The position numbers were made by a program, and so were the translations under genes. Under the pieces are notes generated by a model. That model was given only the letters and a program-made list of their open reading frames with translations. It made no database searches and was not told the origin of the DNA. 23,821 bases of DNA from IMG/VR virus record IMGVR_UViG_3300025647_000274, positions 1-23,821 of that record, one strand, 5' to 3'. Below are positions 4,686 to 21,994 of the stretch, in pieces (the first letter of the stretch is position 1; each line of letters starts with the position of its first letter). The DNA is from a virus.

Positions 4686-4963
4686 TACTTAGATCTTCTT
4701 TCAGCGAAACCTTTAAAGGCTTGTTTTTCTTCCCTTTCTATAGGCTTATCTTCAAGCCTAGCTTCTTCCTCCTGTATCCTAGATAGTATTTCAAAAGCAT
4801 CGAAAATAGCTAATTTCTTGGTTGCTGCGGCGTTCTTTAACCTATCGGCAGAAACGTCATCATCCGTATTAGTGATGATTTTCTCTTCAGCCACTTTTAT
4901 AAGCTCCTCAACTGCCTTGTGCCCAGCTTGGATTATATTCCTTTTCGTTTCCTGTACGCTCAT
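4685..4963 (-). CDS. Small helical protein, possible terminase small subunit
   Basis: This is a 92-residue, highly charged and probably all-helical protein. It contains DRLKNAAATKKLAIFDAFEI around its middle, followed by a Glu/Arg-rich helix. It lies directly upstream of the large terminase with a TAATG overlap, which is where a small terminase is usually encoded. Small terminases bind the packaging site and load the large subunit. Size and position are the main evidence. I see no clear helix-turn-helix, so the function is a suggestion. I chose the ATG at 4963 (MSVQETK) over a TTG four codons earlier, because ATG is stronger and the leader just before it is A/T-rich. The gene overlaps the end of the GroES-like gene by 56 bases. 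Confidence 0.75.
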   Translation of the reverse strand: MSVQETKRNIIQAGHKAVEELIKVAEEKIITNTDDDVSADRLKNAAATKKLAIFDAFEILSRIQEEEARLEDKPIEREEKQAFKGFAERRSK

Positions 4964-5516
4964 ATTTAATAGCAATATCTGAAGACGGAACTCTATACAT
5001 TCTATTTCCGTCTATAATAAATTCATACTCACTCCTAGGCGTGAATCCAACAACGTCCTCCTTGCTTAGTCCTTTACTAATAAGTAGATCATCCAAATGT
5101 TTTAAAACACCCATCAGCGGTTGTTCTTCGTTTGGCGTCCATTTTTCATTAAATGACTTTATTGGCTTCACAAAGCAGAAACCATCTAGTGGCTTCCAAT
5201 CTCCATCACGCTTAAACATGTACACTTGATCTGGAGCAACTATATATGCATCATCACTGAAGTATGCCGCACTATTTTTTTCGTTACCTCTAACGTCGTA
5301 AAAGCGTCTAAACACGTTATGATGCACTATCACTTCATCACCTGGTTTAACACCTGCACAACCAAGTTCTGGTATACCAATGACTATACCAACTCTATTT
5401 ACATACTTATGATCTTGAAGATCAGTGCTAAGTAATAATTCCGAATCACCAATCTTCTTAACGTTCGTTTTTCTAGACTCTTTTGGTCTTATTACGAAGT
5501 TAAATATTGATCTCAT
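4908..5516 (-). CDS. Double-domain GroES-like (co-chaperonin fold) protein
   Basis: This 202-residue protein appears to hold two consecutive GroES-like domains. In domain 1 (about 1-103), FVIRP is followed by GDSELLL, where GroES has its mobile loop. Then come RVGIVIGIP, VKPGDEVIVHHN and a closing DDAYIVAPDQVYMF, in the same order as GroES. In domain 2 (about 109-186), LDGFCFVKPI leads to MGVLKHLD, SKEDVVGF, EYEFIIDG and YRVPSSDIAIKY, matching the GroES C-terminal pattern ending in SDI. Domain 2 has a reduced loop. It is distinct from the ordinary GroES at 18649-18903. GroES caps GroEL, and phage versions such as T4 gp31 adapt the host or phage chaperonin to capsid proteins. Its place just before the terminase genes suggests a role in head-protein folding, which is inferred. 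The fold assignment rests on motif order only. The start overlaps the previous stop as TAATG. Confidence 0.72.
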   Translation of the reverse strand: MRSIFNFVIRPKESRKTNVKKIGDSELLLSTDLQDHKYVNRVGIVIGIPELGCAGVKPGDEVIVHHNVFRRFYDVRGNEKNSAAYFSDDAYIVAPDQVYMFKRDGDWKPLDGFCFVKPIKSFNEKWTPNEEQPLMGVLKHLDDLLISKGLSKEDVVGFTPRSEYEFIIDGNRMYRVPSSDIAIKYERTGNEKEYNPSWAQGS

Positions 5517-5746: not shown

Positions 5747-5981
5747 CTAAAATGTATTCACCGGTTTCTAAATCCAGCGAACCATGACCATACTTTTCAA
5801 CAAGCTCACCCATGACGCCGCGAAGCTCATCGGTGGTTTCCTTAAGTTGGTCCATGTGCTCGTCAATTCTTTCCTGTAGTGAGTATTTAGCAATGTATAA
5901 ACCGCCAATTTCGCTTTTCAACTTATTTTGACGAGATCTAACAGAGTCTAAAATCTCTCTTTGTTTCTTTGTTATTTTCAT
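5730..5981 (-). CDS. Small coiled-coil protein
   Basis: This is an 83-residue protein of unknown function. Residues 1 to about 63 form a charged helix rich in Lys, Glu, Arg and Leu (KQREILDSVRSRQNKLKSEI, then QERIDEHMDQLKETTDELRG), typical of a coiled coil. A short C-terminal segment with GSLDLETGEYIL looks like a beta hairpin. The design suggests an oligomeric structural or assembly factor. Position would allow a scaffold or packaging accessory, but nothing is diagnostic. The start overlaps the kdsA stop as ATGA, and the gene overlaps the next one by 17 bases, so it is translationally coupled on both sides. Confidence 0.72.
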   Translation of the reverse strand: MKITKKQREILDSVRSRQNKLKSEIGGLYIAKYSLQERIDEHMDQLKETTDELRGVMGELVEKYGHGSLDLETGEYILDEKSN

Positions 5982-6793
5982 TTTAAAGCTGATTTTATTT
6001 TATTTAACTTGATTAACAAATCTTCCAACTTGCTTAGTTCCAGCATGTTTGCTCCATCACTAAGTGCTTCAGATGGATTCGGGTGTGTCTCTATAAAAAG
6101 ACCATCAGCTCCAGCGGCTACACTTGCTTTGGCCATAGTCTCTATTAGGTGTGGTAGACCACCAGTTACACCAGATGACGTGTTAGGTTGTTGCAGCGAG
6201 TGTGTCGCGTCGTAAACTAGAGGAGCGTAATTCTTCATTACTGGGAAACCTCTAAAGTCAACCACGAGATCAGAGGGACCAAACGTCATGCCTCTTTCCG
6301 TTATAAGCACGTTCTCATTGCCAGTTGACATGACTTTCTGAACAGCAAATTTCATTGCTTCTGGTGAAACAAATTGTCCTTTTTTTATATTGACTATCTT
6401 CCCAGATTCACCAGCGGCTAATAGTAAATCAGTTTGCCTGCACAAAAACGCCGGTATTTGAAGTACGTCTACAAAGTCAGAAGCCATTTCAACTTCTTCA
6501 ACTGAGTGAACGTCCGTCATGGTTGGAACACCTAGCGTGTAGCGGACCTCGTCTATAGCGTTTAAAGCTTCAAAGTTGCCGATACCGGTGAACGAGTCTA
6601 TTCTAGATCTATTAGCCTTTTTGTAACTAGCTTTAAAAACATAAGGAATATTATGCTTTTTACATATGCTAGAAACAACCCTGGCGATCTCTAGTGGCAT
6701 TTCTTTATTCTCCACTACACATGGTCCAGCAAATAAAAATAAACCGTCCCCAGACGTTATATTATCATAGATTGTATTTGACTCTATGTTCAT
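5978..6793 (-). CDS. kdsA: KdsA, 3-deoxy-D-manno-octulosonate 8-phosphate synthase
   Basis: KdsA condenses phosphoenolpyruvate with D-arabinose 5-phosphate to give Kdo-8-phosphate, the first committed step towards Kdo in the lipopolysaccharide and capsule of Gram-negative bacteria. The 271-residue TIM barrel is complete (E. coli KdsA has 284 residues). Visible motifs are FAGPCVVEN (21-29), YVFKASYKKANRS, IPAFLCRQTDLL, VNIKKGQF, ITERGMTFG, YDATHSLQ and IETHPNPSEALSDG. Cys25 in the AGPC motif, with the later His, Glu and Asp, matches the metal-dependent class. The E. coli type has Asn at this position. Its partner kdsB lies 14.5 kb away at 21299-21994. No Kdo-8-P phosphatase (kdsC) is seen, so the host would have to supply that step. 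The gene follows the methyltransferase after 1 base and ends in an ATGA overlap with the coiled-coil gene. Confidence 0.96.
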   Translation of the reverse strand: MNIESNTIYDNITSGDGLFLFAGPCVVENKEMPLEIARVVSSICKKHNIPYVFKASYKKANRSRIDSFTGIGNFEALNAIDEVRYTLGVPTMTDVHSVEEVEMASDFVDVLQIPAFLCRQTDLLLAAGESGKIVNIKKGQFVSPEAMKFAVQKVMSTGNENVLITERGMTFGPSDLVVDFRGFPVMKNYAPLVYDATHSLQQPNTSSGVTGGLPHLIETMAKASVAAGADGLFIETHPNPSEALSDGANMLELSKLEDLLIKLNKIKSALK

Positions 6794-6794
6794 T

Positions 6795-7379
6795 TTAAAC
6801 CCAGGTTTTGTTGTTCAGTAGGACTGGTATGTCTTTGTTTCTGCAAGACTTTATTTTTTCCGCCCACCAATCTAACTTTTTAACAGTACAGTGAGCGTTT
6901 TCACCGTTTGGTAATGTAGCTACAGCTGGCGCTAAACCAACCTTTATCAGAACAAGCTTAGATGCCTTTGAGAATATTCGATTCAAAACGTAATCTAAAT
7001 CTTCTTCGTGAATATGCTCTAATACGTCGTAGCAAAGAACAGCGTCGTAAACTCCATCTGGTAAAACGTTATATTTCTCAACAGCTGGGTCATATAAACC
7101 AATTTCAACATTAAGGTATTCATGTAGCAATCCTTTTTCGTATTGTACTCCAGATGCGCACCCATAATCAAGCATGGAAACACATTTGTATTTATCAAGA
7201 GCTTCTTTAATATGCTCCTTGGATCTATAAGTCGGGCTTATATTTACCAAACCAGTGTAACCCTGCTCCTCATGCATGATCTTATATTGATCAATGTATT
7301 CTTGGTATTTTTTAGATGGTCCCGCCGACTGTTTTCCTTTCAATATCGTCGTGATCCAATTCAGTCCAGTAAATTTCAT
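6795..7379 (-). CDS. Class I SAM-dependent methyltransferase
   Basis: This is a 194-residue methyltransferase with a Rossmann fold. The SAM-binding motif I is MLDYGCASG (69-77). The acidic residue after strand 2 is in GLYDPAV (94-100). The post-motif block YDAVLCYDVLEHIHEEDLDY (111-130) is typical of small-molecule and sugar methyltransferases of the Methyltransf_11/23 type. The substrate cannot be read from sequence. The neighbours (cupin, transferase-like protein and kdsA) make a sugar or sugar nucleotide plausible, which is inference. The first ATG gives a 68-base overlap with the cupin gene in another frame. The next Met is at residue 35, just before the core fold, so a shorter start is possible but less likely. 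Confidence 0.87.
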   Translation of the reverse strand: MKFTGLNWITTILKGKQSAGPSKKYQEYIDQYKIMHEEQGYTGLVNISPTYRSKEHIKEALDKYKCVSMLDYGCASGVQYEKGLLHEYLNVEIGLYDPAVEKYNVLPDGVYDAVLCYDVLEHIHEEDLDYVLNRIFSKASKLVLIKVGLAPAVATLPNGENAHCTVKKLDWWAEKIKSCRNKDIPVLLNNKTWV

Positions 7380-7656
7380 AGCAAACGCAATCTGTTAGTG
7401 CTTCAAAAGAGTGGTATAAACCGGGTTTAACTATAGTTAGTTCACCCTTATTGACGATGGTCTCGTCTGTTAGCTCGTAAGCCTTTTGCTCAACCTTAAT
7501 CTTTAGAGTGCCAGACTCCATGTAAAAAGCGTTGAACTTGTTGTTGTGCTTATGTGTAGAACAAAAACCACCTTTGTTGATTTCTATTCTATGGATCTCG
7601 AAATTGTGCTTCTGAAATATGTCTTCAGTGAAGCCCCAAACTTTACCCTGCTTCAT
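7312..7656 (-). CDS. Cupin-fold protein, probably sugar-related
   Basis: This 114-residue protein consists of a single cupin barrel. Cupin motif 1 is seen as GFCSTHKHNNKFN (30-42), with His35 and His37 in place. Motif 2 is GELTIVKPGLYHS (71-83), with His82. The usual metal-ligand Glu of motif 1 is Asn42 here, so metal binding may be altered. Small cupins next to sugar-nucleotide genes are often isomerases, epimerases or polysaccharide-biosynthesis accessory proteins, and that is the best guess for its role. The stop of the transferase-like gene overlaps its start as TAATG. Its own end overlaps the methyltransferase start by 68 bases. The leader is strongly A-rich without a Shine-Dalgarno sequence. 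Confidence 0.85.
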   Translation of the reverse strand: MKQGKVWGFTEDIFQKHNFEIHRIEINKGGFCSTHKHNNKFNAFYMESGTLKIKVEQKAYELTDETIVNKGELTIVKPGLYHSFEALTDCVCYEIYWTELDHDDIERKTVGGTI

Positions 7657-8561
7657 TATTTCTTTTTTCTTACTTCAATAAACCAATCCTTGTATTTTTC
7701 TCTCTTAGTGGTCATGTACTCCAAATAAGAGTCAAGTTTCTCTTTCCAGTTTTCTTCTATTTGCGGGCAAATAATACCTGACTTAGGACTGGATAAAGTC
7801 TTGTTGATCCAAGGTTCTGGATTATCTCTATGCTCAAACAGAAATTTATTGACGTGGTAAAAAGACCCTCGCTCAACGTTATTATAAACGTCGATTGGTT
7901 CAATCTCTTTTCCAAGACACGCTGCGTACATAGCTGATTCACTAATGTGAGTAGTGTAAACCTTATCAGCTTTCTGCATGAAGTGATACATGTCTATATC
8001 CCTAGGCAATATCAACTCCTCTCCGAATTGATCTTTTATCTCACCTATTACAGTGTGAGTCGTGATCGGGTGGGGTTTAAAATATACGTTGTCGCCGTGT
8101 AGCTTTTTGATGTGGATCAACTTATTCAAACAAGTGTTTGACTTTAATTTGTTTGACCCAGGTAACACTACTAGATTATCAACCTCTCTGTACCTTGAGA
8201 AATCAGTACCTCTATCCTGGTACTTATTAGACATGTTCTTCTCAATGTTTGATCTAAAATAAGAAGCGAAGTCAATAACTTTAGATTCATCTATATCTTT
8301 ATCATCATACGCATCCATAATCTGCGTAAGTCTAAAGTCCAGATTGAGAGGGTGTATCATAAAACAAGTAGCGTATTCTGTATACGCAAATGTTCTAAAA
8401 TACGGTATCTCCTGAGCTAACACATCGTAGCTAGTCTCTATGTTATACTTCTTAACTTGACGCAAGAAGTATCTTTCAACATCGCGAAGAGGGTCTAGGG
8501 CCTTACTTTTCTTTAGAGACCCTATCCTCTGCTTAGCGACGTTCTCGTTAAACATTTCCAT
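7656..8561 (-). CDS. Capsule-synthesis/glycosyltransferase-like protein
   Basis: This is a 301-residue soluble protein. Its second half resembles GT-B-type capsule and Kdo-transferase proteins of the KpsC/KpsS type. VVLPGSNKLKSN (131-142) is followed by NVYFKPHPIT (158-167), a His-Pro motif typical of these enzymes. Then come ELILPRDIDMYHFMQKADKV and THISESAMYAACLGKEIEPI (204-223), which match the C-terminal donor-binding half, including the ISE-type turn. The family is judged from motifs alone. With kdsA and kdsB in the same genome, CMP-Kdo or a related sugar is a tempting donor, but this is inference. It is the first gene after the giant fibre gene and starts a sugar-related run (cupin, methyltransferase, kdsA). 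The gap upstream holds a candidate promoter at 8589-8613. Confidence 0.68.
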   Translation of the reverse strand: MEMFNENVAKQRIGSLKKSKALDPLRDVERYFLRQVKKYNIETSYDVLAQEIPYFRTFAYTEYATCFMIHPLNLDFRLTQIMDAYDDKDIDESKVIDFASYFRSNIEKNMSNKYQDRGTDFSRYREVDNLVVLPGSNKLKSNTCLNKLIHIKKLHGDNVYFKPHPITTHTVIGEIKDQFGEELILPRDIDMYHFMQKADKVYTTHISESAMYAACLGKEIEPIDVYNNVERGSFYHVNKFLFEHRDNPEPWINKTLSSPKSGIICPQIEENWKEKLDSYLEYMTTKREKYKDWFIEVRKKK

Positions 8562-8588: not shown

Positions 8589-8613
8589 TTCAAATATATG
8601 CTTATTTTCTTAA
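8589..8613 (-). promoter_or_regulatory. Candidate promoter before the sugar-gene run
   Basis: On the minus strand the site reads TTAAGAA, 8 bases, then TATATTTGAA. The second part fits the Bacteroidetes -7 consensus TAnnTTTG. The same two blocks, 7 bases apart, occur at 20625-20648. The site overlaps the stop codon of the giant fibre gene and lies 28 bases before the transferase-like start, in one of the few true gaps in this region. No TTG -33 box is seen at the usual distance, so a phage-specific factor may be needed. Confidence 0.45.
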
Positions 8614-11600
8614 TAATAGAACGTTGTCTCCCAAGTAGTTGTCGTACTAAACGTGGTAGACCAAGTTGTCGTCCAAGAAGTAAGTGTTATAGTTTGAGTT
8701 TGGAAAGTCGTTGTAGTAGATGTAGATGTTTGCCAAGTGGTGGTTGTCTGTACACTTGTCTCCCAGGTAGTTACAGTGTTCACACTTGTTGAAGTACTAG
8801 TTGTCCATCTTGTAACAGTAACAACGCTTGTTGTCCACGTGGTTGTTGTGCTTTTAGAAGTCTGCCAAGTGGTTGTAGTACTTTTAGATGTTTCCCACGT
8901 CGTAACCCAAGTAGTGGTGGTAGATGCGCTAGTAGCGTATGTAGTCCTTGTACTTGTTGACGTTGTCCACTTTGTAGTTGTCTCTCTAGACGTGTTCCAC
9001 GTTGTTATCCAGCTAGTCGTCGTAGACGTACTTGTGTTATACGTTGTCGTTGTAGATGTTGACGTGTTAAAACTGGTCGTCGTACTATGACTAGTGTTAT
9101 ATGTCGTGGTTGTTGACTTAGACGTTGACGTTGATACTGTCCAAGTAGTTATCGTAATAGTAGACGTTGTCCAACTGGTTATAGTCTCTTTAGACGTTGA
9201 CCAAGTTGTAGTTGTTGACTTACTTGTTGAAACGCTTGTCTGCCAAGTTGTAGTTGTGCTTTGGCTTGTACTCCACGTGGTCACCGTTGAGTGAGATGTT
9301 TCGTATGTCGTTGTCGTTTCCTTCTCGGTTGATCTACTTGTGTTGTACTTTGTTGTAGTACTATGACTCGTATTGTAGGTCGTAGTTGTCGTTGTACTTG
9401 TATTATACGTAGTAGTCGTAGACTTAGACGTGCTATGGCTAGTTACCCAAGTAGTAGTTGTACTCATACTAGTACTCCACGTGGTAACGGTTACAGTCGT
9501 TGTAGAATACGTGGTTGTAGTACTATGAGAAGTACTATGACTAGTTTGCCACGTTGTTGTAGTAGACTTGCTAGTATTATAAGACGTAACTGTCGTTGTA
9601 CTTGTATTATACGTAGTGGTCGTTGATCTACTAGTGCCATGGCTTGTCTGCCAGGTTGTAGTTGTGCTCTGACTGGTGCTCCAAATAGTCACCGTTATGG
9701 TTGAGGTGGAGTATGTTGTAGTGGTGCTATGAGAAGTACTGTGACTCGTCTGCCACGTAGTTGTCGTAGAGTGGCTAGTACTATACGTTGTGGTAGTAGA
9801 GTGGTTAGTACTGTATGTCGTTGTTGTACTCCTAGACGTTCCATGACTTGTCTGCCAAGTTGTGGTCGTACTCTGGCTTGTATTCCACGTAGTAATAGTA
9901 ATAGTAGACGTTGAATAAGTTGTCGTCGTGCTATGACTTGTTGAATGGCTTGTTTGCCACGTCGTAGTTGTGCTCTTACTGGTATTATACGTTGTTGTAG
10001 TAGACTTACTGGTGTTATATGTTGTTGTAGTACTATGGCTTGTACCATGGCTCGTTTGCCAAGTGGTAGTTGTGCTTTTACTTGTGTTCCATGTCGTCAC
10101 AGTAATAGTAGACGTTGATCTACTAGTATTGTACGTTGTCGTTGTACTCTTGCTGGTATTATAAGTCGTGGTCGTAGTATGACTAGTACTATACGTAGTT
10201 GTAGTGGATTTAGATGTTCCGTGACTAGTCTGCCATGTTGTTGTGGTGCTCTGACTCGTGTTCCACGTCGTTACAGTTATAGTGCTAGTACTATATGTTG
10301 TAGTTGTAGTATGACTAGTAGAATGGCTTGTTTGCCATGTTGTTGTAGTGCTCTTAGATGTATTGTAAGTAGTCGTAGTACTCTTACTTGTGTTGTAAGA
10401 CGTTGTCGTTGACTTAGAAGTTCCATGGCTAGTTTGCCAAGTTGTCGTGGTACTTTGGCTAGTATTCCAGGTTGTAACAGTTATAGTCGATGTTGATCTA
10501 CTTGTATTGTAAGTCGTTGTTGTACTCTTGCTAGTATTGTACGTCGTAGTGGTTGACTTACTAGTGCTGTACGTTGTGGTTGTACTTTTAGTTGTACTCT
10601 TAGATGTGTTGTACGTAGTAGTGGTAGACTTACTTGTATTGTATGTTGTTGTAGTAGATTTACTAGTATTATAAGTTGTAGTCCATGTTGTAGTCGTACT
10701 CTTACTAGTGTTCCAAACCGTTACGGTTATAGTAGACGTAGAATACGTAGTAGTCGTTGTCTTAGATGTGCTATGACTGGTCTGCCACGTGGTCGTTGTT
10801 GAATGACTCGTGTTGTAAGTAGTGGTTGTAGACTTACTAGTTGAGTATCTAGTCGTTGTGGAATGACTAGTGTTCCAAGTTGTTCTCGTTCTAGTAGACG
10901 TAGATGCTGAGTACGTCGTGGCAACAGTAGTATTCCATGTCGTAGTAGTAGACTTGTTCGTAGATACGCTAGTATTGAAGTAAGTGGTAAATGACGTTGT
11001 CCAAGTCGTTGTGTACGTGGTATTCCAAGCTGTGGTCGTACTAGTTTCACCACCAGAATACTCACCGCACAAATCTAATTGTACTATATCTCTATATGCT
11101 CCACGTATCGAAACAGAACCCTTTCTTGCACAATCAACAAAGAATTCTGGCTCAGCAAGTTCGAACTCCACGTATCTTCCATCACAATCTGTGTAGCTTA
11201 GTATAACCGGTTCTCTATCTAAGATTATGTAGTATGAGTAACATTCGCCACCTGGTAAGCTAGTAGTTGTTGATATACTGGTTGCTCTAGACGTTGATCT
11301 ACTCGTCGACTTACTTGTTGCTCTACTGGTTTGCCAAGTTGTAGTCCAAGTTGTTGTTGTGGACTTAGATGTTGATCTCAACGTGTTTACAACCCAAGTT
11401 GTAGTCCAAGTTGTTATCGTATCTATGGCTGTTGGATAAGTTGTTGTAGTGCTATGGCTAGTATCCCAAGTTGTCGTTGTTGATCTACTAGTACTGTAAG
11501 TTGTTGTAGTAGATCTACTCGTATTGTAATATGTCGTCCATGTAGTAGTCGTAGTGTGACTCGTGTTCCACGTAGTTGTAGTCTTAGTAGCAGTCTCCCA

Positions 11601-13715
11601 GGTGGTCGTCGTAGACCTGTTTGTGCTATGGCTTGTCGCGTACGTTGTTGTGGTTGAGTGACTAGTACTAAACGTTGTTGTAGTACTATGAGATGTTGAC
11701 CAGGTTGTAGTATATGTCGTAGTCGTACTGTGACTAGTATTGTATGTCGTAGTCGTTGAATGGCTAGTACTCCAAGTAGTGGTAGTAGAATGACTAGTGC
11801 TCCACGTCGTGGTCCAAGTGGTTGTTGTTTTGGTTGCTGTCTCCCAAGTAGTTGTCGTGGATCTGTTTGTGTTATAGTAAGTTGTCCACGAGGTCGTCGT
11901 GCTGTGCGATGTTACCCAAGTAGTAGTCGTTGAGTGACTAGTACTCCACGTTGTCGTCGTACTCCTAGTAGTATTGTAATACGTTGTATACGTGGTTGTA
12001 GTTGAGTGACTAGTGTTCCAAGTAGTTGTGGTCTTAGTAGCCGTCTCCCACGTTGTTGTAGTACTTCTATTCGTATTGTAATACGTAGTCCAAGAAGTGG
12101 TTGTAGAATGGTTTGTGTTATACGTTGTGGTAGTGGTATGCGAAGTCGACCAAGTGGTGGTTGTACTGTGGCTAGTCTGCCACGTTGTAGTCCAAGTGGT
12201 TGTAGTTTTTGTCGCCGTTTCCCACGTTGTTGTAGTGCTTCTACTTGTATTGTAATAAGTAGTATACGACGTGGTAGTACTATGACTCGTGCTAAAAGTT
12301 GTGGTTGTTGAATGACTAGTGCTCCAAGTCGTCGTTGTGGACTTAGATGTGTTATAATACGTGGTATAGGTGGTGGTAGTACTATGGCTAGTATTCCAAG
12401 TCGTTTTAGTCTTAGTAGCAGTTTCCCAAGTCGTGGTAGTGCTTCTAGTTGTATTATAGTACGTTGTCCAAGACGTCGTCGTCGTGTGGTTCGTACTGTA
12501 TGTGGTAGTAGTACTGTGACTGGTATTATACGTTGTTGTTGTAGATTTAGTCGTATTATACGTAGTAGTATAAGTTGTTGTTGTACTATGACTAGTGTTC
12601 CACGTGGTTGTAGTTTTTGTAGCTGTTTCCCAGGTGGTTGTTGTAGATCTACTCGTGTTATAATACGTTGTCCACGAAGTGGTAGTGCTGTGAGATGTCT
12701 GCCAGGTGGTAGTAGTACTATGACTTGTCTCCCACGTGGTAGTAGTTGACTTTGACGTATTGTAGTATGTTGTATACGTTGTAGTAGTTGAATGACTAGT
12801 GTTAAACGTATAAACAGTTTTTGTAGCTGTTTCCCAGGTAGTCGTGGTTGATCTACTAGTATTATAACTAGTTGTCCATGTAGTGGTTGTTGAATGAGAC
12901 GTGCTAAACGTGGTTGTCGTGCTATGGCTAGTACTGTATGTGGTAGTCGTGCTGTGACTCGTTTGCCATGTAGTCGTAAATGTAGTGGTTGTACTATGGC
13001 TAGTACTATACGTAGTATTTGTTTTTGTAGCAGTCTCCCAAGTAGTTGTGGTACTTGTAGATGTGTTAAAGTAGCTAATCCACGAGGTCGTTGTGCTAGT
13101 TGATGTATTCCAAGACGTCGTTGTGGTTATGCTTGTCGTCCAAGAAGTCGTGGTTTTTGTGGCGGTTTCCCAATATGTCACCCACGTTGTTGTCGTACTA
13201 TGACTAGTGTGGTATGTAGTTGTAGTTGACTTACTAGTAACCCAAGTAGTTGTAGTACTATGAGATGTCTCCCAGGTAGTCGTTGTAGACCTAGACGTCG
13301 ATGTTGATGTGTCGAATTTTGTTATGGTAATAGTAGACGTTTGCCACTCCGTTGTAGTGGTTGTACTCGTCTCCCACGTTGTTGTTGTAGACTTAGAAGT
13401 CGACGTAGATGTATTAAACGCCGTAGTTGTTGACGTAGATGTATTAAACGTGGTTGTAGTGGAAGTGCTTGTCGACCAAGAGGTTGTTGTTTCTGCTTCG
13501 GTGTCCCAATAAGTTATCCAAGCAGTTTTAGTCTTAGTAGCCGTTTCGAAAACAGTTGTTGTGCTAGTAGACGTATTCCAAGTGGTTGTAGTTGATTTTT
13601 GGGTATCCCAAACCGTTACAGTGTTAGAACTAGTATTCTTAGAAGTATTTCTAGATGTGTTTGTAGAAGTTGACGTGTTCCACTTGTATATTTCCCAAAA
13701 ACCAAAACCAGGCAT
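8610..13715 (-). CDS. Giant Thr/Ser-rich repeat protein, putative tail fibre or adhesin
   Basis: This 1701-residue protein is built almost wholly of a roughly 10-residue repeat, aromatic-x-T-S-(H/K/R)-S-T-T-T-T. By eye, about half of all residues are Thr. A Trp, Tyr or Phe marks each unit. Short spacers such as YTTY break the period. The first 12 residues (MPGFGFWEIYKW) are not repetitive. A unique four-cysteine island lies near residues 819-890. No signal peptide or membrane segment is seen. The alternating Thr and aromatic pattern suggests stacked beta strands, as in a solenoid or fibrous stalk. The gene lies directly after three tail-fibre-type genes, so a long fibre or host-surface adhesin is the likely role, but this is inferred. 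The frame is open for 5.1 kb despite huge synonymous variation, which shows it is under selection. The nearby GroEL/GroES could help fold it, and nearby sugar genes could modify it. Both ideas are untested. Confidence 0.82.
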   Translation of the reverse strand: MPGFGFWEIYKWNTSTSTNTSRNTSKNTSSNTVTVWDTQKSTTTTWNTSTSTTTVFETATKTKTAWITYWDTEAETTTSWSTSTSTTTTFNTSTSTTTAFNTSTSTSKSTTTTWETSTTTTTEWQTSTITITKFDTSTSTSRSTTTTWETSHSTTTTWVTSKSTTTTYHTSHSTTTTWVTYWETATKTTTSWTTSITTTTSWNTSTSTTTSWISYFNTSTSTTTTWETATKTNTTYSTSHSTTTTFTTTWQTSHSTTTTYSTSHSTTTTFSTSHSTTTTWTTSYNTSRSTTTTWETATKTVYTFNTSHSTTTTYTTYYNTSKSTTTTWETSHSTTTTWQTSHSTTTSWTTYYNTSRSTTTTWETATKTTTTWNTSHSTTTTYTTTYNTTKSTTTTYNTSHSTTTTYSTNHTTTTSWTTYYNTTRSTTTTWETATKTKTTWNTSHSTTTTYTTYYNTSKSTTTTWSTSHSTTTTFSTSHSTTTSYTTYYNTSRSTTTTWETATKTTTTWTTTWQTSHSTTTTWSTSHTTTTTYNTNHSTTTSWTTYYNTNRSTTTTWETATKTTTTWNTSHSTTTTYTTYYNTTRSTTTTWSTSHSTTTTWVTSHSTTTSWTTYYNTNRSTTTTWETATKTTTTWTTTWSTSHSTTTTWSTSHSTTTTYNTSHSTTTTYTTTWSTSHSTTTTFSTSHSTTTTYATSHSTNRSTTTTWETATKTTTTWNTSHTTTTTWTTYYNTSRSTTTTYSTSRSTTTTWDTSHSTTTTYPTAIDTITTWTTTWVVNTLRSTSKSTTTTWTTTWQTSRATSKSTSRSTSRATSISTTTSLPGGECYSYYIILDREPVILSYTDCDGRYVEFELAEPEFFVDCARKGSVSIRGAYRDIVQLDLCGEYSGGETSTTTAWNTTYTTTWTTSFTTYFNTSVSTNKSTTTTWNTTVATTYSASTSTRTRTTWNTSHSTTTRYSTSKSTTTTYNTSHSTTTTWQTSHSTSKTTTTTYSTSTITVTVWNTSKSTTTTWTTTYNTSKSTTTTYNTSKSTTTTYNTSKSTTKSTTTTYSTSKSTTTTYNTSKSTTTTYNTSRSTSTITVTTWNTSQSTTTTWQTSHGTSKSTTTSYNTSKSTTTTYNTSKSTTTTWQTSHSTSHTTTTTYSTSTITVTTWNTSQSTTTTWQTSHGTSKSTTTTYSTSHTTTTTYNTSKSTTTTYNTSRSTSTITVTTWNTSKSTTTTWQTSHGTSHSTTTTYNTSKSTTTTYNTSKSTTTTWQTSHSTSHSTTTTYSTSTITITTWNTSQSTTTTWQTSHGTSRSTTTTYSTNHSTTTTYSTSHSTTTTWQTSHSTSHSTTTTYSTSTITVTIWSTSQSTTTTWQTSHGTSRSTTTTYNTSTTTVTSYNTSKSTTTTWQTSHSTSHSTTTTYSTTTVTVTTWSTSMSTTTTWVTSHSTSKSTTTTYNTSTTTTTTYNTSHSTTTKYNTSRSTEKETTTTYETSHSTVTTWSTSQSTTTTWQTSVSTSKSTTTTWSTSKETITSWTTSTITITTWTVSTSTSKSTTTTYNTSHSTTTSFNTSTSTTTTYNTSTSTTTSWITTWNTSRETTTKWTTSTSTRTTYATSASTTTTWVTTWETSKSTTTTWQTSKSTTTTWTTSVVTVTRWTTSTSTSVNTVTTWETSVQTTTTWQTSTSTTTTFQTQTITLTSWTTTWSTTFSTTTTWETTFYY
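8625..11042 (-). repeat. C-terminal repeat array of the giant fibre
   Basis: This coding repeat has a period near 30 bases (10 residues). It shows a higher-order unit marked by STITVTTWNTSQS-like segments, about eight of them, alternating with TTTTYNTSKS and TTTTWQTSHGTS units. Identical peptide units use different Thr codons. For example, three TTTT blocks between about 10563 and 10680 each use a different codon set. The array ends at the C-terminal sequence ending in TTFYY. Confidence 0.85.
11045..11262 (-). other. Four-cysteine domain within the giant fibre
   Basis: About 72 residues interrupt the repeats, starting near LPGGECYSYYIIL. They contain four Cys, in GECYS, TDCDGRY, VDCARKG and LDLCGEY, and I see no other Cys in the protein. 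The middle reads as alternating beta strands with a CDG turn. The style matches small Cys-containing domains in fibre proteins of Bacteroidetes phages, from general recall only. It could be a disulfide-locked or metal-binding node, a trimerisation point or a receptor-binding tip. Confidence 0.7.
11265..13680 (-). repeat. N-terminal repeat array of the giant fibre
   Basis: This has the same basic 10-residue unit as the other array but a different higher-order pattern. WTTYYNTSRSTTTT is followed by WETATKTTTTW and then several TSHSTTTT units, and this recurs about ten times. The ETATKT signature is confined to this array. The plus strand here is markedly G/T-rich because Thr codons (ACN) read as NGT on the opposite strand. 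That gives long false open frames on the plus strand. Confidence 0.85.
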
Positions 13716-13724
13716 AGCTTTGTA

Positions 13725-14252
13725 TTAACCGAAGTTACCAATATAATTTACTAACACAGTGTCTCTATCGACAACGAAGTACGACATGATTGAAACGTCG
13801 CCAGCATCTGTTTGCCAAGCTATAGAATCTCCATTTGGTGTTTTTAAATTAGAAGGTAACGCTTCTGGTGCTGTAACATCTCTGTTAACAATAATGAAAG
13901 TGCCAGATTGACCAACGTTACCTGCTTGGACAATAACATTAAGTGCCCAAGATCCAGCTGGAGACAACAAAAAATTGTGGCCTTCGGTTAAATCTATGAT
14001 GAAAGAACCATTAGGTTCTTGATTCTTAGATACTGGAGTAAAATAATCTACCGTTGTATAAAGAGACGCTAAACTAGGAATACGAGCGACATCAAACGTG
14101 CCGCTCGTTATTTTAGATGCTGACAAGTTCGGTATACGTGCCGTAGCGAATGTTCCGCTATTTATTTTAGCGGCGTCTAGACTAGGGATGTCTGAGGCCT
14201 CAAGATTGTGAGACCCCAGAACATCAATGTCACCTATGAACTTTATTGCCAT
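13725..14252 (-). CDS. Short tail-fibre-type protein
   Basis: This 175-residue protein begins MAIKFIGDIDVLGSHNLEAS, a start shared in style with the next fibre gene upstream (MAIKYLSSLDLSGLEL). Residues 25-60 or so carry a tandem repeat, AAKINSGTFATARIPNL then ASKITSGTFDVARIPSL, typical of fibrous beta-repeat stalks. The rest is a beta-rich domain with VIVQAGNVGQSGTFIIVN, resembling small C-terminal head domains of fibres. It lies between another fibre-type gene and the giant repeat gene, with a 9-base gap before the latter. The start has an AGGA-like element (AGGATAAG just before ATG), one of the few Shine-Dalgarno-like leaders here. Its role is probably a minor fibre or fibre-tip protein. 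The exact place in the virion is unknown. Confidence 0.78.
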   Translation of the reverse strand: MAIKFIGDIDVLGSHNLEASDIPSLDAAKINSGTFATARIPNLSASKITSGTFDVARIPSLASLYTTVDYFTPVSKNQEPNGSFIIDLTEGHNFLLSPAGSWALNVIVQAGNVGQSGTFIIVNRDVTAPEALPSNLKTPNGDSIAWQTDAGDVSIMSYFVVDRDTVLVNYIGNFG

Positions 14253-14271: not shown

Positions 14272-15342
14272 TTAGGCTCTCGTACCGATAATAAGTAGAT
14301 CGTATTGTACGTCAGCCACGGTTGTGAATGTGATTTCTCTTGTAGCTCTATTGTGAACAACGTCAGTATGAACAAGTATAGCTCTGTCACCATCGAGTTC
14401 GTATAGAGTCACAGAAAGAGGAAGAGTGTTATTCCAATCAGCAACGTTGTAAACGAAAGGTTCAGCGGTACCAACTATAACTCTACTAGCGTGGTACACA
14501 TCCGTGTACATCGCCAAGGTATTGTTAGACGTAGTGTAAGCCGCGGACAGTCCATATAGAGACGCACCGGCAATCAAACCACCAGCTAAGTCTTCGATTT
14601 CATTATTTGTTCTCTGTACGGCGTTAATCGTTATAACGTCAGAAGCTTGAGATACGGTTACGTTATTACCAGCCTTAATTACGACATCATCGTTAACGCC
14701 GCCGCCAGCAAGTCTAATCTTAACTTGAGAAGAGTCAGCTCCAGCAACAGTTGAGATCGCGTAAGTATAGTTGTTGTACTCAGATGGTACTGGGATAACG
14801 TTCACTGAAGAGTCAGGAAGCGTGAATACCCATCTACTATCTGGACCCTCCTCTCGCAAGAACAGAGATAAGTTTCCACCTTCGCTACCGCCTCTGTTAA
14901 CCTCTATACCAGCGTCCTCTCTAGCTTGTTCGTCAACCTTAACGTTAGAGTTCAACAAGATAATGTTGTCCTGAATAGCAACAGTTTCTGGAGCTGTCAT
15001 GACATAATCACCCTTGATAGTGAGGTCACCATCAATGATCATTCCCGTTGTGCTTAACACACCGTTTATACTCTGATCTCCAGATGTTCTTATAACAGAG
15101 TTATCAACACTAACTGTTACTCCATCAGCGGCGACACTGATACCATCTCCAGCAATCAAACTGGATCCAACTTCATTCCAATTTGTACCATCGAAAACGT
15201 TTAACTTACCGTCGGTGGTGTTGAAATAAACATGACCTGCAGCTAAACCTGCGGGCTCGTTAACGGTGCTGAAGTTTTCAATCCTCAGCTTTTTTAGCTC
15301 TAAACCTGAAAGGTCTAGACTAGATAGATACTTAATAGCCAT
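14272..15342 (-). CDS. Tail-fibre protein
   Basis: This 356-residue structural protein has the features of phage tail fibres. The N-terminus, with MAIKYLSSLDLSGLELKKL, is probably the attachment end. A collar-like segment follows, with HVYFNTTDGKLNVFDGTNWN (about residues 38-57), a pattern seen in very many tail-fibre and tail-collar proteins. Next come GDGISVAADGVTVSVDN and GDLTIKGDYVMTAPETVAIQ, beta-rich stalk motifs shared with marine phage structural proteins. The C-terminal third is a separate beta domain that may contact the receptor. It is the second of three fibre-type genes and follows the 236-residue gene after 13 bases. No enzymatic motif is seen. The fibre call is firm, but the receptor is unknown. 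Confidence 0.82.
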   Translation of the reverse strand: MAIKYLSSLDLSGLELKKLRIENFSTVNEPAGLAAGHVYFNTTDGKLNVFDGTNWNEVGSSLIAGDGISVAADGVTVSVDNSVIRTSGDQSINGVLSTTGMIIDGDLTIKGDYVMTAPETVAIQDNIILLNSNVKVDEQAREDAGIEVNRGGSEGGNLSLFLREEGPDSRWVFTLPDSSVNVIPVPSEYNNYTYAISTVAGADSSQVKIRLAGGGVNDDVVIKAGNNVTVSQASDVITINAVQRTNNEIEDLAGGLIAGASLYGLSAAYTTSNNTLAMYTDVYHASRVIVGTAEPFVYNVADWNNTLPLSVTLYELDGDRAILVHTDVVHNRATREITFTTVADVQYDLLIIGTRA

Positions 15343-15355
15343 CTTTTAAGGGTTT

Positions 15356-16066
15356 TTAGTTTAAAATAGCTGTGCCCGCAAATGGCTCAGCGAAGGTTAT
15401 AGTTAAAGAATCTACACTGTTATGTGTAACTTGTGCTTCTACCTGTTCGTTGGTATCGTATGATAGTATCGTAACGGATGGGTTTTTACCAAGATTGTGG
15501 TTTATGACCCATTGTGACGAAGCGTTGTGAAACTGAGATCCAGTTGAATATGTTTTATCTGAATCATTTGGGTTTACAGCTAAACCGTAAATAGTTGTAT
15601 CAACTAGAGTACCAGCACCCTCTACATATTCCAATGTTAAAACAACAAAGTCACGTAATTCGGCATGGTCCTCTATAGATAATACTTTATAGTTTACAAA
15701 AGACTCTTGATCGTTAAATGAAAACAACCAAAGTTTATTACCAACGGCGTAATTAAAAAGCGCCTTGTGGCGCTGAAGAGCGAAGTTGTAGATACTTACG
15801 CCTAGTTTGGTTATGTTAGACATGTTTAGGTCACCAGATCCCTCCGGTAAGAACATCGAGCCATATGTTAAATATGTTGGATCTTGCTCTACCGTAAATC
15901 TTAGACTTGTTTGTCTATTTATACCTATAGACGCCGTATTGTTTAGAAACGAAGCTATGGCACTTGGCGGAAAGTTCTTGGTAGCACCAGTAGAACCATC
16001 CGTACCTAAAAGTTTATCATCGTTCTGTATCGATGTCTCTAATGCGTAAGTACTTATTCTTGCCAT
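15356..16066 (-). CDS. Tail-fibre/tail-tip structural protein
   Basis: This 236-residue protein starts MARISTYALETSIQNDDKLL and continues with GTDGSTGATKNF, a fibre or baseplate-type N-terminus. The C-terminal 60 residues form a familiar phage domain: FHNASSQWVINHNLGKNPSV, then DTNEQVEAQVTHNS and TFAEPFAGTAILN. This ending occurs in many tail-tip and fibre proteins, where it probably ends the stalk in a small beta sandwich. It is the first of three fibre genes and follows the 89-residue basic protein gene after 17 bases. The leader is A-rich (GTAAAAAACA before ATG) and has no Shine-Dalgarno sequence. The structural call is good, but the precise position in the tail is unknown. Confidence 0.78.
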   Translation of the reverse strand: MARISTYALETSIQNDDKLLGTDGSTGATKNFPPSAIASFLNNTASIGINRQTSLRFTVEQDPTYLTYGSMFLPEGSGDLNMSNITKLGVSIYNFALQRHKALFNYAVGNKLWLFSFNDQESFVNYKVLSIEDHAELRDFVVLTLEYVEGAGTLVDTTIYGLAVNPNDSDKTYSTGSQFHNASSQWVINHNLGKNPSVTILSYDTNEQVEAQVTHNSVDSLTITFAEPFAGTAILN

Positions 16067-18652: not shown

Positions 18653-18903
18653 TCTACTATTACAATATCACTGGTTTTTATGACTTGATAAACATTACCA
18701 TCAAACGTTATTTCATGCCCGGCGTGACGATCGTAGTATACTATATCACCCTCACTTATGAAATTAGCTTGATCACCAGCAGATTGAACTTTTCCTCTTA
18801 GGTACCTTTTTTCAGAGAGTTTATCGGTGAGCTCCAACCCACCGACATTAACATTCTCTTGTTTTAGCTTTTCTATGATTACGTAGAAGTTTACAGCTCT
18901 CAT
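18649..18903 (-). CDS. groS: GroES co-chaperonin (Cpn10)
   Basis: GroES forms the heptameric lid of the GroEL folding chamber. The 84 residues (E. coli GroES has 97) keep the family order: VNFYVIIEKLKQ, the mobile loop NVNVGGLELTD with the hydrophobic tip LEL, then RGKVQSAG, EGDIVYYDRHAGHEITFDGN and the ending SDIVIVE. The length difference lies in loops. It is coupled to the end of groEL by an ATGA overlap, so the order is groEL then groES, opposite to the common bacterial operon. It would work with the GroEL encoded just upstream, forming a phage-owned chaperonin system. A second, double GroES-like protein is encoded at 4908-5516. Confidence 0.95.
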   Translation of the reverse strand: MRAVNFYVIIEKLKQENVNVGGLELTDKLSEKRYLRGKVQSAGDQANFISEGDIVYYDRHAGHEITFDGNVYQVIKTSDIVIVE

Positions 18904-20462
18904 TGTAGTCTAATATTTGATATAACAGCGTCAGCTGAGATTATTGTTGATGCAACGGACACCGCGTTTTTAAGTGCTGTTTTTGTAACTAGTAGTGGGT
19001 CAATGATACCGTTTTTTATCATGTTTACCTGTTTGCCAGTAACGACATCCATACCGTAACCTTTTTTGAATACAGGATTCATGATAAACATATCGGCGTT
19101 GCTCATAATCGTGTTAAATGGCGCTTTAATTGCCTCTAGAAGCACTTTCTCACCAACGGTGGACTTGTCGCTAATAAATTTATTTGAAGCCCCTAGAAGC
19201 GCTATTCCACCACCAGGTACAATACCTTCTTGTATTGCTGCTTTTACCGCGTAGATAGCATCTTCAACCCTATCCTTTTTTTCCTTTAATTCTATCTTAG
19301 AATTGGCACCAACTCGGACAATACCAACCTTACCGCTTAGCATTGCTACACGCTGTTCGATCTTTTTCTTGAAAAACGGATTATTTTCCTTTTTTAGTTT
19401 AGCTTCCGCTTGTTCTAGTCTCTCCGACACCTCGCTTGACACGCTTGAAACTGTAATAACGGTGTTCTTGCTATCGGTCACAGCTTTGTCAACCTCGCCA
19501 AGTACGTCTGGTGTAAGTGTTTCAACGTCGTCACCGAGTTCCTCTGATATAACCTTAGCACCTGTTATGGCAGCTAAATCCTCTAGTGTGTCTCTTCTTG
19601 TTGGGCCAAAACCAGGTGGGTCTATAATGTTGATCTTAATATTGCCCTTTACCTTGTTCATCAATAAAGCCTGCAATGGCTGCTGCTCTACCTCAGCAAC
19701 GATCAGTATAGATCTCTTTTGCTTTATAACGTGTTCTAGGATATTTTGTATCCTACGGATATTAGGTATTGGCGAGTCAACAATAAGTACGTAGGGATTG
19801 TCTAGAACAGCTCTCTCTTTATCCTGGTCTGTTATTAGGTATGGGCTTTTTAAAGTAGAGTCAAACTGTACACCATCTACGATGTCAACATACGTTTGTT
19901 CAGTGTCTGACTCTTCCATTAGTACAACGCCGTTCTTACCGACGGCCTCGAAAGCGTCTGATATAACTTTAGCTAAGGCCTTATCACTGTTTGTTGATAT
20001 GTTGGCGACTGAATTTAGCATGTCACCACTAACATCAACTTTAATAGTGTCTAGATACTTAATTACCTTATCAGCAGCCTTCTCTATATCGCCTTTTAAC
20101 TCTCTAAGTGTTACCTCATCAATAACCTCGTAAGCTCCTTTTAAAATAGCGTGTGAGAGAACGGTGGCTGTAGTAGTACCGTCACCAGCTTCCTTAACCG
20201 TGTTTTTAGCTGCTTCTTTAATCAACGTGGCGCCAATACTTTCTAGCGGATCCTGCAAAACCACGCTTTCCGCGACGGTGACACCGTCTTTCGTGATAAC
20301 GGGTCTACCCATCGCGTCTTCATAGATAACACACCTTCCACTAGCGCCAAGTGTAGATGAAACGGCCGCCGCTAGTTTTTCAACGCCGTTTAACATTTTT
20401 TCTCTAGCTGTAGCGCCAAAGTTTATGTCTTTGACGATTTCGCTCGGATTATTAAATTCCAT
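18900..20462 (-). CDS. groL: GroEL chaperonin (Cpn60)
   Basis: GroEL is the ATP-driven double-ring chaperonin that folds proteins in a closed chamber. The 520 residues are near full length (E. coli GroEL has 548). ATPase residues are intact: KDGVTVAES (Asp59), AGDGTTTATV (93 onward, Asp94) and RVEDAIYAVKAAIQEG (Asp401), followed by VPGGG. In the apical domain, FDSTLKSPYLIT replaces the E. coli FDRGYLSPYFIN. The positions of E. coli Tyr199 and Phe204 are therefore Leu, which may change substrate binding. The C-terminus ends with SADAVISNIRLQ and lacks the flexible Gly-Gly-Met tail. Likely clients are capsid, portal or the giant fibre, which is inferred. Phage GroELs are known, for example in Pseudomonas phage EL, so a viral gene here is plausible. 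The leader is AT-rich, with no Shine-Dalgarno sequence. Confidence 0.97.
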   Translation of the reverse strand: MEFNNPSEIVKDINFGATAREKMLNGVEKLAAAVSSTLGASGRCVIYEDAMGRPVITKDGVTVAESVVLQDPLESIGATLIKEAAKNTVKEAGDGTTTATVLSHAILKGAYEVIDEVTLRELKGDIEKAADKVIKYLDTIKVDVSGDMLNSVANISTNSDKALAKVISDAFEAVGKNGVVLMEESDTEQTYVDIVDGVQFDSTLKSPYLITDQDKERAVLDNPYVLIVDSPIPNIRRIQNILEHVIKQKRSILIVAEVEQQPLQALLMNKVKGNIKINIIDPPGFGPTRRDTLEDLAAITGAKVISEELGDDVETLTPDVLGEVDKAVTDSKNTVITVSSVSSEVSERLEQAEAKLKKENNPFFKKKIEQRVAMLSGKVGIVRVGANSKIELKEKKDRVEDAIYAVKAAIQEGIVPGGGIALLGASNKFISDKSTVGEKVLLEAIKAPFNTIMSNADMFIMNPVFKKGYGMDVVTGKQVNMIKNGIIDPLLVTKTALKNAVSVASTIISADAVISNIRLQ

Positions 20463-20624: not shown

Positions 20625-20648
20625 TTCAAATATACTAAATATTCTTAA
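20625..20648 (-). promoter_or_regulatory. Candidate promoter before the chaperonin run
   Basis: On the minus strand, TTAAGAA, 7 bases, then TATATTTGAA. The same two blocks with 8-base spacing occur at 8589-8613. TATATTTG fits the Bacteroidetes -7 consensus TAnnTTTG. It overlaps the amidase stop codon and lies just 2 bases before the ATG of the 44-residue gene, so a transcript from it would be almost leaderless for that gene. No -33 TTG is seen. Confidence 0.45.
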
Positions 20649-21309
20649 GCATTTGGATCATTTCTGGTTGTGGAAATATGTCTATCTTGTCTCCTCTCAC
20701 TGAGTTATGTGTGTATAAGCCTGGTTTACCCGACAGCGCTTCTTTTGACACGTTCCACATCAACTCGTGGTTATATTCTATAGGTATACCGTAAATTTCG
20801 TTCCAGTACTTTAAAAGATTTTCCACACTCCTTATCTGCTCATCAGAATACCTGTGGAAGAATCTATGTCCTTTGTACTTTTCTTCAAGCGTGCACACCT
20901 CTTCCTTGGGCACTTGCCTGTTAACATAATTAAAAAACTTACCGTCTTTTTCGGTTAATTGTCCCCAAGCGCATATTTCAACACCTATAGAGTACTTGTC
21001 TAATTGTAGGTAAGGTAATTTATATGCTTTAAAAATCTCTTTTTTAACACCTAAGTGGTACGCCCAATACTTACTGCTAAACCCCTGCGATATAACGCCG
21101 TCGCCTTCTTTTGCGCCAGTGTTAGATATACAGACGCATGTAGCTATACGACCTCTAGAGTCAGCCATCCAATTACGGAAAGTGCTTACGCCAGACGCGG
21201 ACCCGGCCGTGTGGTGAAGGTATATTTGCTTTTTTTCAGTAACCTCCTTAACGTATTCGCTATCGATAAGTGGTACCTGTTTTATATTTTTTAAAAAACT
21301 AGCTTGCAT
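20635..21309 (-). CDS. N-acetylmuramoyl-L-alanine amidase (endolysin)
   Basis: This is a 224-residue Amidase_2/PGRP-type enzyme that cuts the bond between N-acetylmuramic acid and L-alanine in peptidoglycan. The zinc ligand region is YLHHTAGSA (30-38). The second part of the site is GLYTHNSVRGDKIDIFPQ, giving His201, Lys208 and Asp210, the same pattern as His122, Lys128 and Cys130 of T7 lysozyme. YSIGVEICAWG is the conserved core strand. No signal peptide is seen, so release would need the holin-like protein at 22024-22293. I chose the ATG at 21309 because an A-rich leader (TTAATAAAA) precedes it and the overlap with kdsB is only 11 bases. An alternative ATG at 21333 adds 8 residues. Confidence 0.9.
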   Translation of the reverse strand: MQASFLKNIKQVPLIDSEYVKEVTEKKQIYLHHTAGSASGVSTFRNWMADSRGRIATCVCISNTGAKEGDGVISQGFSSKYWAYHLGVKKEIFKAYKLPYLQLDKYSIGVEICAWGQLTEKDGKFFNYVNRQVPKEEVCTLEEKYKGHRFFHRYSDEQIRSVENLLKYWNEIYGIPIEYNHELMWNVSKEALSGKPGLYTHNSVRGDKIDIFPQPEMIQMLKNI

Positions 21310-21994
21310 TTTTATTAAGTATTTGTCTAACATACTCTAGATCCTCAGGTGAATCAACACCGACACTTTCTACGTCAACTTCTGAAAAGTGTATCTTATA
21401 GCCATTGTCCATCCACTTGACTTGTTCTAAACTTCTAGGTATTTGATTTTCAGCGTTTTGCAGTTTTCCGATTTCTACAAGCGTATCATACTCAAAAGCG
21501 TACATGCCAAGATGTCTGAAATCGGTTTTTTCCTTCATGCAATTACACCTGCTGAACTCAATACATTGATCACCGTCAGTGACAACACGCACTATGTTTT
21601 TAGTATCGGCGCTAACTCTTGTTGCTAGTGTTGCTATTTTAACGCCGTCCTCTTGTATTTTACGCTCTAATACCTCTACATCTAAGTGTGAAACTAATGG
21701 TTCATCGCCTTGTACGTTTATCACATAATCAGGTTCGTACGATAGCAGGTCTAGTGAACCAGCTATTCGCTGAGTCCCGTCACTAAAGTACTCACTCTTA
21801 TAAATAACATTAGCGCCCCTCTCGAAAGCAGTGAGCGCTATGTCAATGTGATCTGTAGCTATATACGTGTCGTAGTATGGAGAAAGCGCGTCGTATGCGT
21901 GCATCACCATTGGTTTGCCATTAAGGTCTGCTAGTGGTTTTCCAGGAAATCTAGTGCTCGCGAAGCGAGCCGGAATTATTACGACAGTTTTCAA
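21299..21994 (-). CDS. kdsB: KdsB, CMP-Kdo synthetase (3-deoxy-manno-octulosonate cytidylyltransferase)
   Basis: KdsB activates Kdo with CTP to CMP-Kdo, the donor for Kdo transferases. The 231 residues (E. coli KdsB has 248) are complete. The nucleotide-binding IPARFASTRFPGKPL (7-21) is followed by SDGTQRIAG (71-79), VINVQGDEPL (91-100, Asp97), FRHLGMYAF, EQVKWMDNGYKI and VDSPEDLEYV. These are the conserved sites of the family. It lies within the lysis group, between the holin-like gene and the amidase, with an 11-base overlap into the latter. The first pathway enzyme, KdsA, is far away at 5978-6793. The product could feed host lipopolysaccharide or capsule change, or a virion glycan, and the sequence cannot decide. 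Confidence 0.96.
   Translation of the reverse strand: MKTVVIIPARFASTRFPGKPLADLNGKPMVMHAYDALSPYYDTYIATDHIDIALTAFERGANVIYKSEYFSDGTQRIAGSLDLLSYEPDYVINVQGDEPLVSHLDVEVLERKIQEDGVKIATLATRVSADTKNIVRVVTDGDQCIEFSRCNCMKEKTDFRHLGMYAFEYDTLVEIGKLQNAENQIPRSLEQVKWMDNGYKIHFSEVDVESVGVDSPEDLEYVRQILNKNAS

Follow-up and report, generated by a model that had tools for sequence, protein, structure and literature searches.

What is the function of a single 5.1-kb gene of a marine virus whose product is nearly half threonine? The question is raised by the window analyzed here, a stretch of 23,821 nucleotides covering positions 1 to 23,821 of the IMG/VR virus record IMGVR_UViG_3300025647_000274, in which the minus strand encodes a 1701-residue repeat protein. 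Judged from sequence comparisons, this putative fibre protein and the glycosyltransferase encoded directly downstream of it are an uncatalogued two-gene module, a larger finding than the first-pass annotation of the window had noted, and the glycosyltransferase partner is the main clue to function. Phages with the module probably produce long tail fibres of their own and coat them with sugar. The features on which this rests are as follows.

8610 to 13715, minus strand: alternating Thr/Ser repeat protein of 1701 amino acids (ATG to TAA, 1701 codons, one open frame), the proposed tail-fibre shaft and glycan acceptor
13680 to 13715, minus strand: its N-terminal hydrophobic cap, MPGFGFWEIYKW, kept in relatives L084 and L221 and found in variant form across the family
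11046 to 11258, minus strand: its 71-residue non-repeat insert (residues 820-890), with four Cys, predicted to be all-beta and globular
7656 to 8561, minus strand: predicted GT-B glycosyltransferase of 301 amino acids, directly downstream of the repeat gene, with the KPHP form of a KxHP motif and a near-invariant Ser-Glu pair

The repeat protein contains 791 Thr (46.5%), 311 Ser, 93 Trp, 84 Tyr and 21 Phe, with Ser and Thr together accounting for 65% of residues, which agrees with the first-pass description of one long frame for a protein about half Thr. That description also counted well over 100 repeat copies, a figure that holds for degenerate units only, since the unit TTTT[WYF]xTSxS occurs in 47 exact copies and in 77 in relaxed form. 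Repeat units share 81% protein identity, but at Thr codons common to two units the third base agrees in 29% of cases compared with 28% expected from codon use; because this agreement is no higher than codon use predicts, the repeat is ancient and maintained in the protein sequence. Recent tandem duplication of the DNA was ruled out as its origin, synonymous sites being saturated.

A loosened pattern spanning two consecutive units matched at least 120 stretches of IMG/VR, which gave at least 121 loci with repeat open reading frames (ORFs), by sequence a large and uncatalogued family. The ORFs reach 2302 residues, and there are short versions of about 220 residues with a central globular domain; central globular inserts also occur in some other members. 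A short hydrophobic N-terminal cap is common to family members and SFYA-like C-terminal tails are frequent, the window protein ending in TTFYY. Two IMG/VR contigs, L082 and L083, carry identical copies of the window protein, and the L084 protein is 57% identical to it, with the cap in common and a 42% identical counterpart to a 48-residue stretch of the insert. Pfam and PHROG profiles, including those of known tail-fibre families, gave no match to the repeat protein, nor did phmmer against PDB, which is in keeping with an earlier suggestion that the fold may be undescribed. The insert (residues 820-890) had no significant match in PDB. A tblastn search of cultured phages with the window protein and the short relatives L128 and L121 returned no matches, probably owing to the low-complexity filter.

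The pairing of repeat gene and enzyme gene was evident from both directions. At 79 of 121 repeat loci the enzyme gene was present, always downstream on the same strand and in 77 cases within 400 nt (neighbours were counted after out-of-frame ORFs over the repeats had been removed). Another 29 loci end within 500 bp, which leaves 13 exceptions; some of these have the order repeat, methyltransferase, repeat, enzyme, complete in L132, and one, L097, lies on the contig of L285, where the enzyme is present. In L132 (3-5651), as well as in L172 and L097, the methyltransferase between the two repeat proteins is about 350 residues long. The reverse search began from the enzyme alone and used a narrower alignment (A2), because alignment A1, made from several subfamilies, covered too much diversity for scanning contigs. 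A Ser/Thr-rich ORF ended 11-124 nt upstream at 72 of the 75 evaluable enzyme loci; among the three without one (L230-L232) are the contigs of L112 and L131, in which one gene stands between repeat gene and enzyme. As a baseline, none of 1093 ORFs in 898 kb of terminase-related phages (L002-L081) was Thr/Ser-rich, and the enzyme was found in one of these 80 relatives (L044), in 0 of the 24 with more than 6 kb upstream, and in 0 of 14 full control records. A scan of 84,980 bacterial and archaeal genomes turned up a single enzyme relative, on a contig of a Flavobacteriales metagenome-assembled genome that also bears the repeat. Cultured phages of the KVP40 group, Vibrio phage 6E35.1a, and Caulobacter phages Lullwater, Quill and BL198 encode enzymes 21-26% identical to this one with a Ser/Thr-rich gene just upstream, whose alternation of residue types (described below) is clear in KVP40 and 6E35.1a and weaker in the Caulobacter podoviruses. 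The corresponding products are KVP40.0254 in KVP40 and gp41 in Lullwater.

The enzyme itself matched PHROG 26179, a family of unknown function, over its full length (3.6e-34, residues 6-293; 48 of 48 members match). PHROGs 26179 and 30602, to which it belongs, have no assigned function, and the present analysis adds a predicted fold class and a partner. An AlphaFold2 model built from 48 sequences had a GT-B fold at high confidence (predicted local distance difference test, pLDDT, 94.9; predicted template modelling score 0.91), and the only five PDB matches of this model at E<=1e-3 in Foldseek were all transferases of 3-deoxy-manno-octulosonate (Kdo), namely KrkA (GT140), KpsC (GT107) and WbbB (GT99). 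It shares with them the (K/R)XHP motif, which binds cytidine monophosphate (CMP) in sialyl- and Kdo transferases (PMC12887879). K162, H164 and P165 of this motif are invariant in the 48 sequences, and D46, Y60-T61, K113-Y114, G135, S207-E208 and G262 are invariant or nearly so. The enzyme profile returned noise only from PDB sequences and isolated weak matches from Pfam, among them polysialyltransferase and Capsule_synth, none above cut-off; a PF05159 search of the window had no match. We take the enzyme to act as a CMP-sugar transferase does, perhaps with inversion, and D46 and E51 are candidates for its base.

The repeat protein alternates with a period of two residues. Ser and Asn lie on one parity and aromatic and basic residues on the other, both in residues 1-819 and in residues 891-1701: Ser is distributed 138/2 and 0/166 by parity in these two halves, and Trp 1/51 and 41/0. 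Ser parity was 0.97 and 1.00, compared with at most 0.36 in 2000 shuffles, and the sole phase change is at the 71-residue insert. Throughout the family the alternation holds and the phase seldom changes; in one 2302-residue ORF it never does. When 71,440 positions were sorted by phase, face A was 61% Thr, 20% aromatic, 14% basic and about 1% acidic, and face B was 35% Thr, 31% Ser, 14% Asn and 6% Ala. Phase was set by Ser and aromatics, so the split of those is partly by construction; Lys, Arg and His (95-98% on one face) and Asn, Ala, Gly and Asp (93-98% on the other) were not used.

Aromatic residues are spaced by 10 residues in 108 cases, 14 in 22 and 4 in 17, while spacings of 1 and 3 are paired aromatics (e.g. 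YY) that leave the phase unshifted. Because indels keep parity (4, 10, 14) and the phase runs unbroken over 800-2300 residues, each repeat segment is better described as an extended, turn-free beta chain than as a solenoid, and its small-residue face may be the packed interface of an oligomer. A monomeric beta-solenoid or a stack resembling TxT antifreeze proteins, suggested in the first-pass annotation, would account for the regular 10-residue period and the Thr-rich, beta-branched composition, but freely mixed spacings misfit a constant coil length, no phase slip was seen at the presumed turns, and no PDB sequence matched. Structure prediction of the repeats as a monomer, which that annotation had proposed as a check, gave no solenoid: in an AlphaFold2 model of residues 741-970 (about 15 repeats, two sequences aligned) pLDDT was 22-31 in the repeats and about 81 in the insert. 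This low-confidence model argues against a self-standing solenoid, and we regard such a fold as very improbable. An antifreeze role was rejected in view of the aromatic and basic content, the fibre-gene neighbourhood and the glycosyltransferase partner. Like the triple-stranded beta-helix of T4 gp5 and related phage fibre shafts (PMC4576200), the protein would be a fibre of repeated beta segments, likely trimeric; unlike them, it has no Gly-corner octapeptide, mixes spacings of 4, 10 and 14, and keeps a strict, unbroken two-residue phase. Fully extended, its 1630 repeat residues would span about 540 nm (calculated at 3.3 Angstrom per residue), and a wound fibre would be much shorter.

The placement of the repeat in a tail fibre comes from its neighbours and its relatives. 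Three fibre-type genes lie directly upstream in the window on the same strand, as the first-pass annotation stated.

13725 to 14252, minus strand: small fibre-type protein, encoded next to the repeat gene on its upstream side, with weak matches to tail-protein PHROGs
14272 to 15342, minus strand: fibre-type virion protein (phrog_6002, virion structural, 2.6e-8)
15356 to 16066, minus strand: possible fibre-tip type protein, so called in the first-pass annotation, matching only PHROGs of unknown function (8e-11 and weaker)

Genes directly upstream of repeat genes elsewhere encode 73 non-redundant proteins, whose matches are chiefly to tail-fibre and distal long-tail-fibre PHROGs. Among the relatives tested, the repeat proteins of L199, L123, L137 and L124 end in Peptidase_S74 (PF13884), an intramolecular chaperone domain of fibres, scoring above its curated cut-off, as S74 tail fibres do. 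This recurrent position in many unrelated contigs, together with the S74 C-termini, supports the earlier proposal of a long fibre or adhesin. Two other repeat proteins (L091, 5267-5956; L164, 6493-7587) have intein/Hint-like C-terminal modules, suggesting self-processing at a fibre tip. The location directly after a (distal) tail-fibre gene, and the versions of about 220 residues with a globular centre, could describe a tip adhesin or assembly factor comparable to the products of gene 38, which follows the distal fibre gene in T4-type phages; lengths of up to 2302 residues and C-terminal S74 domains fit a shaft that carries a tip of its own, and we think the tip or assembly role unlikely.

The window also encodes candidate enzymes of sugar-donor supply, and one gene run holds KdsA, the repeat gene, the glycosyltransferase, a cupin and a methyltransferase.

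5978 to 6793, minus strand: KdsA, 3-deoxy-8-phosphooctulonate synthase (NF003543, 354.7 bits vs cut-off 242; TIGR01362, 345.8 vs 314)
6795 to 7379, minus strand: S-adenosylmethionine (SAM)-methyltransferase-like protein, a homologue of which is fused to KdsA in L109, L116, L122, L186 and L195
7312 to 7656, minus strand: cupin protein of 114 amino acids, with related cupins in 8 family loci
21299 to 21994, minus strand: KdsB-like CMP-Kdo synthetase (PF02348), best family by far 3-deoxy-manno-octulosonate cytidylyltransferase

The KdsB-like protein falls below the curated cut-offs (181.9 bits vs 193, and 126 vs 155.2); its gene is overlapped by 35 nt by an N-acetylmuramoyl-alanine-amidase-like gene (20635-21333). 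The KdsA-methyltransferase fusion follows the repeat-enzyme pair in L109 (6245-7648) and in the other four contigs, its methyltransferase part being a distant relative of the one in the window. Those five contigs also hold a GT29-like sialyltransferase, a GT-A-like protein and a radical SAM protein. Nearly all Gram-negative hosts make CMP-Kdo, and most module carriers would therefore not need Kdo genes of their own. Kdo is our best guess for the sugar donor, at about even odds. Viral kdsB and lipopolysaccharide genes are usually interpreted as remodelling host lipopolysaccharide (PMC9529941), and by that precedent the glycosyltransferase and Kdo genes would exclude other phages and lie beside the repeat gene incidentally. 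The near-obligate pairing with the repeat gene, seen whichever partner a search starts from and across unrelated phages, and the lack of Kdo synthesis genes in most module carriers, make such remodelling an improbable explanation here.

Taken together, we propose that the repeat gene product would be the shaft, or a distal extension, of a phage tail fibre, in which several chains, probably three, would run alongside one another as long beta strands without turns, with the Ser/Thr/Asn/Ala face packed inward and the Thr/aromatic/basic face outward. The downstream enzyme would be a dedicated CMP-sugar-dependent glycosyltransferase that modifies Ser/Thr hydroxyls of the fibre with a sugar, probably Kdo, while the protein is in the host cytoplasm, ahead of assembly, and in the window phage KdsA and the KdsB-like protein would raise the donor supply. 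We assign this whole mechanism, in which an oligomeric shaft of the tail fibre is glycosylated by a dedicated enzyme, a probability of roughly 0.55, its weakest steps being the identity of the sugar and the oligomer. As a whole, the first-pass interpretation is partly supported; the insert domain, the cap and the glycosyltransferase were absent from it.

Several observations weigh against the proposed mechanism. No Peptidase_S74 domain was detected in the window protein by Pfam scan, and the low-confidence monomer model of the repeats fits disorder or an obligate oligomer alike. The enzyme does not conserve the QXXXD nucleophile that retaining Kdo transferases have (11 of 48 sequences, at scattered positions; the conserved segment is PGSN), and we did not file it in GT99, GT107 or GT140 for that reason; global TM of the Foldseek matches is low (0.28-0.47), and the donor could be another CMP-sugar. 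A further difference from KrkA, KpsC and WbbB is that the enzyme is phage-encoded beside a fibre gene. KdsA and KdsB each occur in 4 of 27 long module records compared with 0 of 14 terminase relatives without the module, a co-occurrence that is suggestive but not significant. In phage Cr30 the short neighbour of the enzyme does not alternate, and in F86, D479 and DLP_6 the enzyme is present without an adjacent repeat protein.

The very low monomer pLDDT, the Ser+Thr content and the adjacent glycosyltransferase would also be expected of a virion brush of unfolded, mucin-like glycoprotein to which the neighbouring enzyme adds the sugar, and in which the alternation reflects a local requirement for sugar acceptors. 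Bacterial serine-rich repeat adhesins, with alternating Ser and dedicated glycosyltransferases, offer a parallel in Gram-positive bacteria; the module resembles them, by description, in its long alternating Ser/Thr repeat and dedicated adjacent enzyme, and differs in its phage tail-fibre setting, Thr dominance, aromatic and basic residues on one face, and a single CMP-sugar-type enzyme. A disordered acceptor has no need to keep its aromatic and basic residues to one face and Asn and Ala to the other, Pro and Gly are nearly absent, and the S74 trimer chaperone occurs in relatives, all of which leave the brush doubtful relative to a folded, glycosylated shaft.

If the glycosylated shaft is correct, an acidic sugar on a basic fibre would alter adsorption, stability and interaction with the host surface. 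More tentatively still, the module may represent a new fibre architecture, with parallel turn-free beta strands of hundreds to more than 2000 residues per chain that bear a Kdo-type acidic sugar along their length, added by a dedicated phage enzyme, across unrelated aquatic phages. The analysis offers a testable function for a widespread unannotated family (PHROG 26179 and the uncatalogued repeat family), and the diverged versions in cultured phages KVP40 and Lullwater make the idea directly testable. By this account some of the viral Kdo genes commonly taken for modifiers of host lipopolysaccharide may instead serve the phage's own fibre. The sequence also points to an unusual fibre fold, specified by a simple code, that could be developed into an engineered material.

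The window terminase shares 46-63% identity with its counterparts in Flavobacterium elemo phages and in an uncultured podovirus, with Cellulophaga phages among the other matches. The repeat was not found in the elemo and MW202828 stretches examined, so the module is accessory in the lineage of the window phage. It is found beside T4-like gene sets with ribonucleotide reductase as well as in podovirus-like contigs, and so has moved between phage groups. Related podoviruses carry giant 11-kb structural genes (L001, 741-12320; L296, 34983-46067), annotated as reticulocyte-binding or DUF3293 structural proteins. As in the elemo phages, the window encodes GroEL (18900-20462) and a GroES-like co-chaperonin (phrog_13932; 4908-5516). 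An SGNH/GDSL-type hydrolase at 22336-23034, scoring below the Pfam cut-off, is a possible sugar deacetylase.

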